From the NCBI GenBank assembly GCA_016875405.1, contig VGRJ01000021.1:1-54720 (forward strand): DNA of 54,720 nt, read 5' to 3'. Shown here piece after piece: positions 23,559 to 28,068 of this stretch; position 1 is the stretch's first letter; the number at the start of each line of letters is the position of its first letter. The translations under genes and the position numbers were made by a program. The notes below the pieces were generated by a model. That model was not told the origin of the DNA and made no database searches. It saw only the letters and a list, made by a program, of their open reading frames with translations. The stretch is from Deltaproteobacteria bacterium. Lineage in GTDB: Bacteria > Myxococcota_A > Polyangia > Polyangiales > Polyangiaceae.

Positions 23559-23679
23559 GCCGGGCCACGCCCGCGGCGCGAGCGGAGCCGAATGCCACCT
23601 CTCTCCGCGAGGTGAGCCAATATCGCACCTTTGTGAATCAGCCGCGCCGAGGTGCGAATGCCGAAATATGGGTCGCTGG

Positions 23680-23685
23680 TAGCCT
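23680..23685 (+). promoter_or_regulatory. -10 box of the metzincin-like lipoprotein gene
   Basis: TAGCCT ends 8 nt before the ATG at 23694. A -35 box is not obvious. It faces the methyltransferase promoter across a 148-bp divergent region. Confidence 0.3.
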
Positions 23686-23693
23686 CTGGGGGC

Positions 23694-25187
23694 ATGCATT
23701 CGCTCGCCCATCTTGGACCGGTCGCCTTGCTCTCCCTCCTCGTCGCGTGCGGCGGGGACGACTCGTCGGACACGAGCGGCGGTCCTCCGCCGCCCGAGCT
23801 CCTCCCGGCGGACGGCGTGACGATCGAGCGCGTCGCCATGTACCAGGGCCTCGAGCGCGACCTCGCGGAAGGCGGCTCTCCCGTCTTCGACGGGGTGAGG
23901 GTCATCGCCGGGCGCGCCGCGGCGGTGCGCGTGTTCTACCAGACGGACGCCGATTACGACGGCGGTTCGGTGCTCGCGCGGCTCACCGTGCTCGACGGCA
24001 GCGACGCGGGCGGCGGAGGAGGCGCGGGCGCGCCGGCCACCGAGAAGACGTTCGACATCGCCGGCCCGCTCCAGGTCGCGGGCTCAAAGCCGGACGACCT
24101 CGAGAGCACGGTGGTCTTCGACGTGCCCGGGGAGTACCTGACGCCGACGAGCCAGTTCCGCGTCGAGCTCCTCCGAGTCAAGGCGCAGACGAGCGGGACC
24201 AACACGAAGGCCAGCTACCCAACCCAGGGAGACGCCGCCATCGGCGCGGTCTCCGTCGGCCCGCGGGTGCGCATCGTGCTCGTCCCGATTCGCTACGACG
24301 CGGACGGCTCGGGGCGCTTGCCGGACACGTCGCCCGAGCAGCTCGCGCTCTACCGTGACGTCCTCTACAAGCTCTTCCCGACGCCGGAGGTCGACCTTCG
24401 CGTCGCCGAGCCGTTCCCTTGGGGCGGCGCGGTCTCCGGTCAGGGCGCGGGCTGGGGTGAGCTCCTCACCGCGATGCTGACCCACCGCCAGAAGTCGAAG
24501 GCCGAGTACGACGAGTACTACTATGGCATCTTCCGCGCGCGAGAGACGTTCCCCCAGTTCTGCGGCGGCGGCTGCATCGCGGGCCTCAGCCAGGTCGCGC
24601 TCAAAGCCACGAACGATTTCGCGCGCGTCGGCGTGGGCATCGGCTTCAGCGGCCCCGACATCGCGATGACCGCCGCCCATGAGATTGGCCACGAGCACGG
24701 ACGCGGCCACGCGCCTTGCGGGACGAACCAAGGCGTCGACGGCGGCTACCCCCATGCCGACGCCGAGATCGGGGTCTACGGCTTCGACCTCGTGACGAAG
24801 CAGCTCCAGAAGCCGTCGATGAAAGACTTCATGAGCTACTGCGATCCGAAGTGGGTCTCGGACTTCACCTTCGAGGCGCTGGCCACGCGGATGCTCGAGG
24901 TGAACGGCGCCGCGAGGCTCGTGCATCCAGGCGGTGAGCCGAAGCGGAAGAGCTACCAGCGCGTGTCGCTCGGCCCGGACGGAAGCGCGCGCTGGGTCGA
25001 GCCACTCGAGCTCGAGCGGGCGCCCCTCGGCGAGCCCGAGGTCGTCCGGATCACGACGAGCAGCGGCGAGCAGGAGGTGGTCGGACACTTCTTCCCCTAC
25101 AGTCACCTACCTGGCGGAACGCTGTTCTTCGAAGCCCCGGCGGACGCCGCTCGGGCCGTGGTTCGCGGTCGCCAGGTCGCTCGCTGA
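23694..25187 (+). CDS. Lipoprotein with metzincin-like zinc protease motif
   Basis: This 497-residue protein, started at ATG 23694, has the lipobox LLVACGGDDS near residue 20. A beta-rich region follows. HEIGHEHGRGH (residues about 329-339) exactly fits HExxHxxGxxH, and MSY about 41 residues later (Met about 380) fits the Met-turn of metzincins. The C-terminal part (after about 420) has no recognised domain. It is likely an envelope-anchored zinc endopeptidase. I do not recognise the specific family; the N-terminal 300 residues look unlike a classical propeptide. It is divergent from the methyltransferase and upstream of the Fe-S oxidoreductase. Confidence 0.72.
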   Translation: MHSLAHLGPVALLSLLVACGGDDSSDTSGGPPPPELLPADGVTIERVAMYQGLERDLAEGGSPVFDGVRVIAGRAAAVRVFYQTDADYDGGSVLARLTVLDGSDAGGGGGAGAPATEKTFDIAGPLQVAGSKPDDLESTVVFDVPGEYLTPTSQFRVELLRVKAQTSGTNTKASYPTQGDAAIGAVSVGPRVRIVLVPIRYDADGSGRLPDTSPEQLALYRDVLYKLFPTPEVDLRVAEPFPWGGAVSGQGAGWGELLTAMLTHRQKSKAEYDEYYYGIFRARETFPQFCGGGCIAGLSQVALKATNDFARVGVGIGFSGPDIAMTAAHEIGHEHGRGHAPCGTNQGVDGGYPHADAEIGVYGFDLVTKQLQKPSMKDFMSYCDPKWVSDFTFEALATRMLEVNGAARLVHPGGEPKRKSYQRVSLGPDGSARWVEPLELERAPLGEPEVVRITTSSGEQEVVGHFFPYSHLPGGTLFFEAPADAARAVVRGRQVAR

Positions 25188-25274: not shown

Positions 25275-25303
25275 TTGACGCCCACCCTGCCCCCCCCTAG
25301 AAC
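25275..25303 (+). promoter_or_regulatory. Promoter of the Fe-S oxidoreductase gene
   Basis: TTGACG (25275-25280) and TAGAAC (25298-25303) are separated by 17 nt, the best sigma-70-like match in the window. The ATG at 25315 begins 11 nt past the -10 box, leaving a leader of only a few nucleotides and no Shine-Dalgarno. Confidence 0.6.
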
Positions 25304-25314
25304 TTCAGCAGCCT

Positions 25315-27738
25315 ATGCACCCCACGTGGATGTTGACGATGCTGGTCGGGCTGTTCGCCGCGTTCTGCTGGAGCGCGAACCGCCGCTGGCAGCTCTTGAA
25401 GGTCGGCCGTGACGACAACCGACTCGACCAGCTCGGCGAGCGCCTGAAGGGCACGTACGAGTACGCCTTCGTCCAGAAGAAGATGAGTAATTACGCAGGC
25501 GCCGGCCTCGCGCACCAGCTCATCTTCGTCGGCTTCCTGGTGCTGTTGCTCCGCTCGCTCATCCTCTGGGGGCGTGGGTTCGACCCCACGTTCAACCTCT
25601 GGATCTTCGGCCCCACGCCGGTAAACCTTCCGCTGCTCGGACCGGTGCCGATCGGAACGGTGTACGGGTTCGCGAAGGACGTGGTGTCGATGCTCGTCCT
25701 CTTGGGCGCGCTCTACTTCCTCTACCTGCGCGTCTACAAGAACGAGGCGCGCCTGACGCACTCGTTCGAGGCGGTGCTCATCCTCGGCATCATCATCTCG
25801 ATGATGCTCGGCGACATGCTGTACGACGGCGCGGCCGAGGTTCTCCATAAGCGCTATTGGGCGAGCCTCTGCGGCCCCGGCGGCGACGTGGACACCTGCG
25901 CCAGCATCACCACGGTGGTGAGCCACCTCGGCGCGATGCCGACGGCGGCCGAGACGCACTTCGCGTGGCACGCGTACCCCGACCCGGCGGGCTCGCTCTT
26001 CGCGCTGGTCCTCGGCGACTCCGGCCACCAGCAGCTCATCGCGATCGCGCACGTGGGCTTCTGGGTCCACGCGACGCTCGTGATGCTGTTCTTGAACCTG
26101 CTTCCTCACTCGAAGCACTTCCACATCCTCACCGGCATTCCCAACGTGTTCGCGAGGAGCCTCGAGCACCCCGGCAAGCTGAGCTCGATGGGCAACACCG
26201 AGCAGCTCGGTGAGCTCGTGATGGCCGCTGCCGACAGCCCCGACACGGCGGCGCCCGTCGGCGTCGCGCGGATCGAGCATTTCACCTGGAAAGCGATCCT
26301 CGACTTCTACACCTGCACCGAGTGCGGCCGCTGCTCGGACCACTGCCCGGCCCACCGCTCGGGCAAGCTCCTCAGCCCGAAGCAGTTCACGATCGATCTG
26401 CGCGACCACCTCTACGCGCGCGAGGACGAGTTCATCCGTCGTCCTGGTGGGCCGAAGGGCGCCGTCGACGATGGCCACGCGCACGGCGCGCACGGCCACG
26501 ACGCGCACGGCCACGACGCGCACGGCCACGACGCGCATGGCCACGACGCGCATGGCCACGACGATCACGGGCACGACGACCACCACGAGCCCGTCTACCC
26601 CGAGAACCCGATCCCGCTCGCCGACGTGACGAGCGAGCCAATCGACCTCGTCGGCAACGTCATCCACCCCGACGTCCTCTGGGCCTGCACCACCTGCCGC
26701 GCCTGCGAAGAACAGTGCCCGGTGATGATCAGCTACGTCGACAAGATCGTCGACATGCGCCGCAACCTGGTGATGGTGAAGGGTGAGTTCCCCGTCGAGC
26801 TCGCAGGCCCCTTCCAGGGCATGGAGGTCAACGGCAACCCGTGGAACCTCGCGCGCCTCGATCGCGGCAACTGGGCCGAGGGCCTCGACGTCCCGACGAT
26901 GGCCGATTTCCCCGATGCCCCGGTCCTGTTCTGGGTCGGCTGCGCGGCGAGCTACGACGACCGCGCGAAGAAGATCGCTCGCTCCACGGCCCGCTTGATG
27001 AAGGCCGCCGGCGTCGAGTTCGCCATCCTCGGCCAGGAGGAGACCTGCACGGGTGACCCCGCTCGGCGCGCCGGCAACGAATACCTGTTCGCGCAGCTCG
27101 CGGAGCAGAACGCCGCGACGCTGAACGGCTACAAGGAGCAAGGCGGCATCACCAAGATCGTGACGAGCTGCCCGCACTGCTTCAACACGATCGCGAACGA
27201 GTACCCCGACTTCGGGGCGAAGTTCGAGGTCGTGCACCACAGCGAGTACCTCATGAACCTCGTCGACGAGAAGAAGCTCTTCCCGCGCGAGAAGCACGAC
27301 GGCAAGGTCGTCTACCATGACGCCTGCTACCTCGGCCGCTACAACGACAAGACGGAGGAGCCGCGTCGGATCCTTCAGTCGATCCCGGGCGCCGAGCTCG
27401 TCGAGGTGCTCGAGGCCAGCCGCAAGAAGGGCCTCTGCTGCGGCGCGGGCGGCATGCAGATGTTCATGGAGGAGCAGAACAAGGACCGCATGAACAACCG
27501 GCGGACCCTGCAGCTCCTCGACACCGGGGCGAAGACGATCGCCACCGGCTGCCCGTTCTGCATCACGATGATCTCGGACGGCCTCAAGGCACACAACCAG
27601 GAAGACAGCGTTCGCACCGTAGACGTCGCCGAGATGCTCGAAGAGAGCTGCGCGCTAGACAAGCCGGTCGGCCGCCGCGCCGCGATGCCGCAGGATCCGC
27701 CGCGCCGTTCGCCCGCCGCTGGACACGCCGCAGAGTGA
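25315..27738 (+). CDS. Membrane (Fe-S)-binding oxidoreductase, EtfD/HdrD-like, with His-rich insert
   Basis: This 807-residue protein has about five N-terminal membrane segments with conserved His residues (NarI/HdrE-like, possible haem b; about 1-290). The [4Fe-4S] motif CTECGRCSDHCP follows (334-345), then a His-rich repeat (387-424) and a second motif CTTCRACEEQCP (458-469). Two CCG cysteine-rich domains follow (GCAASYD ... CPHC; DACYLGRYN ... CCGAGG ... GCPFC). This order matches proteins that pass electrons between ETF or heterodisulfide-type donors and the quinone pool. AHGHD repeats between the two cluster motifs are unusual. The gene has its own strong promoter and near-leaderless start. 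Confidence 0.88.
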   Translation: MHPTWMLTMLVGLFAAFCWSANRRWQLLKVGRDDNRLDQLGERLKGTYEYAFVQKKMSNYAGAGLAHQLIFVGFLVLLLRSLILWGRGFDPTFNLWIFGPTPVNLPLLGPVPIGTVYGFAKDVVSMLVLLGALYFLYLRVYKNEARLTHSFEAVLILGIIISMMLGDMLYDGAAEVLHKRYWASLCGPGGDVDTCASITTVVSHLGAMPTAAETHFAWHAYPDPAGSLFALVLGDSGHQQLIAIAHVGFWVHATLVMLFLNLLPHSKHFHILTGIPNVFARSLEHPGKLSSMGNTEQLGELVMAAADSPDTAAPVGVARIEHFTWKAILDFYTCTECGRCSDHCPAHRSGKLLSPKQFTIDLRDHLYAREDEFIRRPGGPKGAVDDGHAHGAHGHDAHGHDAHGHDAHGHDAHGHDDHGHDDHHEPVYPENPIPLADVTSEPIDLVGNVIHPDVLWACTTCRACEEQCPVMISYVDKIVDMRRNLVMVKGEFPVELAGPFQGMEVNGNPWNLARLDRGNWAEGLDVPTMADFPDAPVLFWVGCAASYDDRAKKIARSTARLMKAAGVEFAILGQEETCTGDPARRAGNEYLFAQLAEQNAATLNGYKEQGGITKIVTSCPHCFNTIANEYPDFGAKFEVVHHSEYLMNLVDEKKLFPREKHDGKVVYHDACYLGRYNDKTEEPRRILQSIPGAELVEVLEASRKKGLCCGAGGMQMFMEEQNKDRMNNRRTLQLLDTGAKTIATGCPFCITMISDGLKAHNQEDSVRTVDVAEMLEESCALDKPVGRRAAMPQDPPRRSPAAGHAAE
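26491..26580 (+). repeat. 15-bp tandem repeat coding AHGHD
   Basis: There are six consecutive 15-bp units. Three are identical (CACGGCCACGACGCG), then two have CAT in place of CAC at the first codon (the second of them also ends in GAT), and the last is CACGGGCACGACGAC. They encode HGHDA/D. With flanking codons, 16 of 38 residues (387-424) are histidine. The unit length keeps the reading frame if copies are gained or lost. Confidence 0.95.
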
Positions 27739-27756: not shown

Positions 27757-28068
27757 GTGAGCGCCGAGGACGACTGGACGTCTCGAGAGGGGCGGGACCT
27801 CGTGACGGAGGGCTCGCCCCTCGTCGCTTCTTACGCGGCCGATGACGTCGCACTCGCAGCGCTCGCCCGGCGCGTCGAAGAGGAGCCGCCGCGCTGCCAC
27901 GCGTGCGACAAGACCATCTCCGGCACGCCCGCGGGGAGCGGCCTCCTCGTGTGGTCGCGCGGGGATCGTGTCGAGACCGAAGAGCCTCCACTCTGCGCGG
28001 CGTGCGCGGCGGCGATCGGCCTGAGCGCGCTTCGACGCTGGGCGATCGAGGACGACGAAGAGGGCTGA
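27757..28068 (+). CDS. Small protein with two CxxC pairs (zinc-ribbon-like)
   Basis: This 103-residue acidic protein has CHAC near residue 47 and CAAC near residue 85, about 35 residues apart. That spacing suits a zinc ribbon or treble-clef knuckle. The rest has no recognised domain and the C-terminus is acidic. The GTG start is supported by the promoter 7 nt upstream. It follows the Fe-S oxidoreductase by 18 nt. It is not a known family to me; a regulator or assembly factor is only a guess. Confidence 0.6.
   Translation: MSAEDDWTSREGRDLVTEGSPLVASYAADDVALAALARRVEEEPPRCHACDKTISGTPAGSGLLVWSRGDRVETEEPPLCAACAAAIGLSALRRWAIEDDEEG

Follow-up and report, generated by a model that had tools for sequence, protein, structure and literature searches.

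The His-rich segment that separates the two [4Fe-4S] motifs of an 807-aa EtfD-type membrane Fe-S oxidoreductase from a Polyangiaceae genome is interpreted here as a slippage-expanded, disordered and clade-specific surface loop, which would serve as a variable linker rather than as an essential metal device; a probability of about 0.6 is assigned to this interpretation. The insert would represent the clade-specific, repeat-expanded form of an inter-motif loop that all EtfD-type sequences examined possess, and slippage of GC-rich repeats may lengthen and shorten it. In the host enzyme as well, the loop would be disordered and surface-placed, bulging out of the ferredoxin-like module and staying clear of the electron wire, and selection would chiefly keep it soluble, unfolded and nearly free of Lys and Arg. 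His mixed with Gly, Ala, Asp and Glu would be one solution to that requirement, and metal binding by the loop, if any, would be a weak side property. Since the family tolerates many polar fillers as well as very short forms, the segment is regarded as a disordered loop first and as a possible metal binder second.

The host enzyme, its loop and its neighbourhood

The gene was delineated on the forward strand at positions 25315-27738 (stop codon included) of the window, the whole stretch of 54,720 bases that was analysed, by means of its ORF, phmmer and Pfam matches, and cofactor residues. Two stretches of the protein matched CCG (E=1.1e-33), and Fer4_8 and Fer4_10 also scored above the Pfam cut-off, a Fer4 dicluster part and two CCG domains being united in one chain. 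No NCBIfam model matched at its own cut-off, and the top partial match was TfrB, the fumarate reductase (CoM/CoB) subunit. The best solved-structure match was PDB 9ojn ("Iron-sulfur-binding reductase", phmmer E=2.5e-134), which is M. smegmatis EtfD, MSMEG_0690, according to PMC13083937. The 26 cofactor-site residues of 9ojn named there, comprising two heme His, three heme Arg, two quinone-site Phe and 19 residues at clusters D1-D4 (17 Cys, one His and a Thr replacing an Hdr Cys), were transferred through the phmmer alignment. All but one of the 26 could be aligned, and the 25 aligned residues were all identical; heme Arg150 of 9ojn lies outside the aligned part, and heme Arg137 and Arg306 match. 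The heme b His pair corresponds to His67 and His270, and the quinone-site Phe pair to Phe74 and Phe259. The ligands of the linear [3Fe-4S] cluster D1 (Cys543/578/619/622, with Thr579 in place of the Hdr Cys) and of the noncubane cluster D2 (Cys671/708/709/746/749 and His621, which is His583 in 9ojn) are present, and both the Thr and the His that distinguish EtfD from Hdr are identical. An initial, sequence-only reading had placed the protein among EtfD/HdrD-like membrane oxidoreductases, and the structural match and the cofactor residues bear this out. An antisense ORF (25297-27594) and an ORF in another frame (26322-26786) were taken as by-products of the high-GC coding sequence.

In the host genome, a 99% complete draft, one match to ETF alpha was detected (PF00766, E=7.2e-31) and none to the ETF-QO Fe-S domain PF05187, a search whose control was positive in 3/14 genomes. 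Together with the cofactor residues, these results indicate that the 807-aa protein is the likely ETF-to-quinone route. Judging from its family, the enzyme most likely passes ETF-derived electrons to quinone, and the fatty-acid electron flow of the host probably depends on it.

The two CxxCxxCxxxCP motifs, aa 334-345 (26314-26349, forward strand) and aa 458-469 (26686-26721, forward strand), align with Cys301/304/307/311 and Cys412/415/418/422 of 9ojn, respectively, and their Cys residues at aa 334-344 (Cys334/337/340/344) and aa 458-468 (Cys458/461/464/468) correspond to the D3 and D4 ligands. Between them, where the sequence-only reading had located the insert, translation gives a His-rich run at aa 388-424 (26476-26586, forward strand) with the pattern HAHG-(AHGHD)x5-DHGHD-DHH; the 16 His then counted were recovered, in a run of 37 residues instead of 38. 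The proposed origin in 15-bp repeats was also found, as Tandem Repeats Finder (TRF) reported at 26482-26578 (forward strand) an AHGHD-encoding tandem array of CACGACGCGCACGGC with a period of 15, 6.5 copies, 92% matches and a score of 152. On its 3' side the run is followed by the segment EPVYPENPIP (26587-26616, forward strand), defined by the NPxP comparison described below. A sequence search with the His run alone retrieved nothing among solved structures at E up to 1. The host assembly is a draft of 218 contigs, so that assembly may have affected the exact number of repeat copies. The His-rich loop as such is genuine, since His-rich loops of different patterns occupy the equivalent position in the four other genomes of the genus.

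According to PMC13083937, cluster D4 of 9ojn is held by Cys301/304/307 and Cys422 and cluster D3 by Cys311 and Cys412/415/418, and residues 348-373 of the inter-motif loop were left unmodelled. This ligand layout implies that the loop exits one side of the two-cluster module and returns to the other side. The unmodelled residues, LESTPEGGLGEKARGEKHEQKHAHDH, align with aa 381-418 of the 807-aa protein in a register that is loose owing to low complexity. In M. smegmatis EtfD the unmodelled loop is closed by a short His-containing stretch, KHEQKHAHDH, and for this reason, the earlier statement that the ferredoxin part of such proteins was not known to contain a His-rich loop has to be softened. 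From the unmodelled loop of the homologue and from composition, we infer that the loop is disordered in the host protein. An AlphaFold2 prediction from five sequences (that of the window and L032-L035), made on a shallow alignment, gave a mean pLDDT of 40.6 and a pTM of 0.32 and was not used.

As a chance control, the window and 60 stretches of 20 kb (1,254,720 bases, 25% of 5,024,321) were scanned, taking from each of 6,913 ORFs (all six frames, minimum length 100 aa) the best 40-aa window by His count. The EtfD run, with 16 His, was the most His-dense 40-aa stretch within the scanned 25% of the host genome, and the next two ORFs reached 11 each; one of these (L258) had no Pfam match and reads like a wrong reading frame. 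The idea that the host genome is generally rich in His tracts was unsupported in the 25% scanned. TRF rows with a score of at least 120 numbered 36 in the same sequence, 32 of them with a period that is a multiple of 3, in a count made on period and including overlapping rows. Arrays of this kind are thus commonplace and the His density is not, which suggests a common mutational source with an uncommon His-rich outcome. A second 15-bp array, perfect and of 8.5 copies, was observed at positions 1-127 of the window, within a minus-strand ORF (1-552) open at the contig edge, where it gives a PilZ-domain protein (PilZ E=6.5e-11) EEPKA repeats in its tail; 15-bp in-frame expansion is hence not special to EtfD.

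Among five neighbouring ORFs, Pfam matches were above cut-off for DNA methylase-like, alpha/beta hydrolase and UvrC proteins and below it for M66-like and DUF7576-like ones, and a metal-handling match was found neither in these ORFs nor in the host protein. The gene weakly resembling DUF7576 (27757-28068, forward strand; tblastn, Pfam) starts 18 bases downstream of the EtfD stop and encodes 103 aa with two CxxC pairs. It was detected by tblastn in 36/58 loci (duplicate genomes included) and was not found by tblastn in the His-rich L012, L018, L021, L083 and L092. A tie between the His loop and this gene was rejected, as it accompanies His-rich and His-poor EtfD alike; its product is a possible partner or maturation factor. 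Upstream of EtfD, a 511-aa protein (23652-25187, forward strand) shows a weak Peptidase M66 match, below cut-off, that spans HEIGHEHGRGH; it occupies this position in 4/5 congeneric genomes and also in g64, g24 and g56, every one of which has a His-rich loop.

Loop variation and history in Polyangiales

Matches to the protein were found in 59/59 genomes of the relatives search and in 108/108 genomes of the family, two sets that overlap and that include a few weak matches. The spacer between the motifs was read in 124 sequences from 123 Polyangiales genomes, namely 102/108 genomes of the family plus 22 sequences from 21/22 other genomes of the order. The family genomes omitted were G030 and G116 (weak matches only), G080 and G086, G105 (split over contigs) and G079 (no motif pair in one frame); elsewhere in the order, G051 (split) was omitted and G057 gave two sequences, other paralogues being outside the count. 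Spacer length ranged from 44 to 132 aa over the 124 sequences. This range agrees with the length-variable linker that the sequence-only reading had offered as one option and, together with the differing repeat patterns in five genomes of the genus, answers with yes the question it had raised, whether the insert and its copy number vary among orthologues.

His-rich spacers were found in 16/124 sequences belonging to nine genera, and the other 108 had 0-6 His in the variable core. Within the family, 16/102 sequences contained 8-19 His in this core and the remaining 86 contained 0-3, and the 22 sequences of the order outside the family contained 0-6. The His-rich genera were g1 (5/5), g56 (2/2), g23 (2/2) and g64 (2 read of 3), together with g4, g30, g24, g16 and g15, represented by one sequence each. 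Many of the His-poor spacers consist of Ala/Glu/Ser/Gly low-complexity sequence, and in a few, hardly any sequence separates the conserved ends; no conserved motif was seen within the variable part of the spacer. The occurrence of His-poor spacers across the family indicates that the enzyme family does not require His. Short spacers, of 44-52 aa, belong to L126, L144 (a long branch in the quick tree described below), L047, L134, L112 and L114, and suggest that the extra loop length is dispensable. A phylum search, with some match in 95/112 genomes, and a plasmid search, with matches in 108 records, were also performed. In an outside set of 38 sequences, made up of one further Polyangiales sequence, 32 from other parts of the phylum and 5 from plasmid records, a His-rich spacer was found in none, the maximum being 5 His per 40 aa.

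Two individual loops are of a different kind. In L014 (G013:C53), a SASASE-type Ser/Ala/Glu repeat makes up the loop, having expanded separately at that site. The 130-aa spacer of L137 (G076:C336:8140-10710) contains two hydrophobic, membrane-helix-like stretches that its congeners L133, L119 and L147 lack; a transmembrane hairpin inside the Fe-S module would be odd, and the stretches may reflect either a genuine insertion or a faulty assembly.

The history of the His-rich state was traced on a careful tree of 53 sequences, from which the variable core was excluded and in which g14 and g19 were cut to two sequences each. The His-rich label changed four times on this tree (3-4 times over bootstrap trees, with at least two changes forced by the starred branches), and the 16 His-rich sequences all fell inside one group of 22, whose support was weak (83/79). 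The same group contains the His-poor g19, g66 (Minicystis rosea, to whose gene that of L034 is identical) and g32 with g14. A quick tree of all 124 sequences also gave four changes, with g23, g16 and g15 apart from the main group. One gain and about three losses would fit these topologies best, two gains being also possible. The motif NPxP follows the loop in 16/16 His-rich sequences, in 6/6 of the His-poor g19 and in 1/102 others, and its retention in g19, which is without most of the His, suggests that this genus probably descended from a His-rich form and then lost His. Indeed, His has been lost and the enzyme retained in six genomes of g19, in Minicystis rosea and in the genera g32 and g14; four state changes, with His-poor lineages nested in the His-rich group, indicate that His can be lost.

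Loop composition and a possible role of His

In five genomes of the genus, the regions flanking the run are 78-90% identical in protein and 50-63% identical at fourfold-degenerate sites (10 pairs). The repeat patterns differ across these genomes (e.g., AHGHD, EHGHD, GNGH, GAGHDHGDGHDH), and despite this the share of His in the run stays at 31-43%. On the wider scale, His is kept in 16 sequences of nine genera amid repeat turnover and is gone in nested lineages. The His codons of the 16 sequences comprise 163 CAC and 37 CAT; among codons one step away, CAA/CAG occur 3 times and CGC/CGT not at all, and 14 Asn codons and many Asp codons are present, in a count that for L009, L010, L012, L082, L084 and L085 takes in some non-repeat flank. 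Lys and Arg account for 9/815 residues in His-rich cores versus 186/2690 in His-poor cores, a difference whose Fisher p of 7e-13 is overstated because the sequences are related. The codon and His-fraction data look like selection for His or against an Arg neighbour, not mere tolerance, and count against the preferred linker reading; so does the presence of a single tract of such His density in the scanned 25% of the genome, which is unexpected from a general slippage process. The composition of the loop as a whole points to selection for His, against positive charge, or both.

These patterns bear on the view that the insert arose by pure neutral slippage, as a chance repeat expansion with no effect whatever. 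The near-identical copies of the 15-bp array are compatible with it, as is the frequency in the genome of arrays whose period is divisible by 3. Nevertheless, the His-rich state has been maintained in 16 sequences of nine genera, and within the genus the His fraction is stable, with zero CGC/CGT, where fourfold sites are down to 50-63% identity. This explanation appears highly improbable.

The same data bear on the idea of a true metal-binding device, in which Ni, Zn, Cu or Fe would be bound near the enzyme, either to keep toxic metal off the Fe-S clusters by buffering or to contribute iron to the four Fe-S clusters of the enzyme itself. Sixteen His per 37 aa, the maintenance of the His fraction during repeat-unit turnover, the excess of synonymous CAT (37) over CGY (0) and CAR (3), and the status of the run as the sole tract of such density in the scanned part of the genome all argue for it, as does the expanded His-rich cytoplasmic loop of the nickel exporter RcnA, which is possibly nickel-related according to PMC11247825. 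However, several close lineages lost His and kept the enzyme, the five neighbouring ORFs lack a metal-handling match, and the His-rich insert is absent from 37 homologues outside the order. Metal buffering or delivery is less well supported in view of the loss of His in close relatives that keep the enzyme, and such a device is considered unlikely. In its most specific form, a metal buffer would be built into the central ETF-to-quinone enzyme of a Polyangiaceae lineage as a self-renewing His array beside the Fe-S wire; the array would shield the clusters from metal attack or supply iron to them, and selection would fix the His count while slippage reshuffles the units. We regard this form as unlikely.

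The scarcity of Lys and Arg in His-rich cores (9/815 versus 186/2690) could also be accounted for by a docking or tethering segment tuned to pH or charge, for instance for ETF or for a neighbouring membrane complex, in which composition would matter over sequence. From an AlphaFold3 model, the authors of the EtfD structure suggested that ETF interacts with another disordered part of that enzyme, its long C-terminal tail (PMC13083937); the host protein has just 24 aa beyond the end of the 9ojn match. No conserved motif was seen in the variable part of the loop, no partner was found, and short or His-poor loops occur among the sequences; docking is considered quite unlikely.

The disordered variable linker is thus the preferred explanation, with a His-specific role of the loop as a further possibility, as His is kept while repeats turn over. 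The family offers a natural series of one enzyme in which the loop is very short, free of His or endowed with up to 19 His, and what an insertion between two Fe-S motifs does to an electron-transfer enzyme can therefore be tested directly. If His matters, a respiratory Fe-S protein, and not a metal-handling one, would here contain a metal-binding insert.

Comparison with known systems

By title and abstract, the open-licence literature searched yielded no paper that deals with His-rich inserts in proteins like EtfD, and the terms his-rich, histidine-rich, zinc and nickel have no occurrences in PMC13083937. The host protein resembles M. smegmatis EtfD in its heme b membrane domain, two [4Fe-4S] motifs, two CCG domains and a loop at the equivalent place. 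The unmodelled stretch of the mycobacterial protein, in contrast, has 26 residues with 4 His and no comparable repeat array, and its disordered C-terminal region of about 30 kDa, as given in PMC13083937, contrasts with the 24 residues past the match in the host. Ferredoxin-like and CCG modules are also shared with HdrC and HdrB, and HdrC chains were matched at E 4e-6 to 5e-4 (phmmer). Unlike Hdr, Thr579 and His621 of the host follow the EtfD ligand pattern reported in PMC13083937.

In its His density and low complexity, the loop recalls HypB, SlyD, CooJ and Hpn-like proteins. These His-rich proteins handle nickel, whereas the Pfam matches of the host are to Fe-S and CCG families only; lacking a metal-handling Pfam match in itself or in its five neighbours, the host protein is not a member of a metallochaperone family. 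A parallel in kind is found in the RcnA-type nickel exporters of cable bacteria, where a His-rich loop in a membrane protein has likewise undergone clade-specific lengthening, so that His-rich loop expansion within a membrane protein is already known (PMC11247825). RcnA is a metal transporter, whereas the host is an electron-transfer enzyme some of whose relatives are without His, and the two are likened by description, not by sequence.
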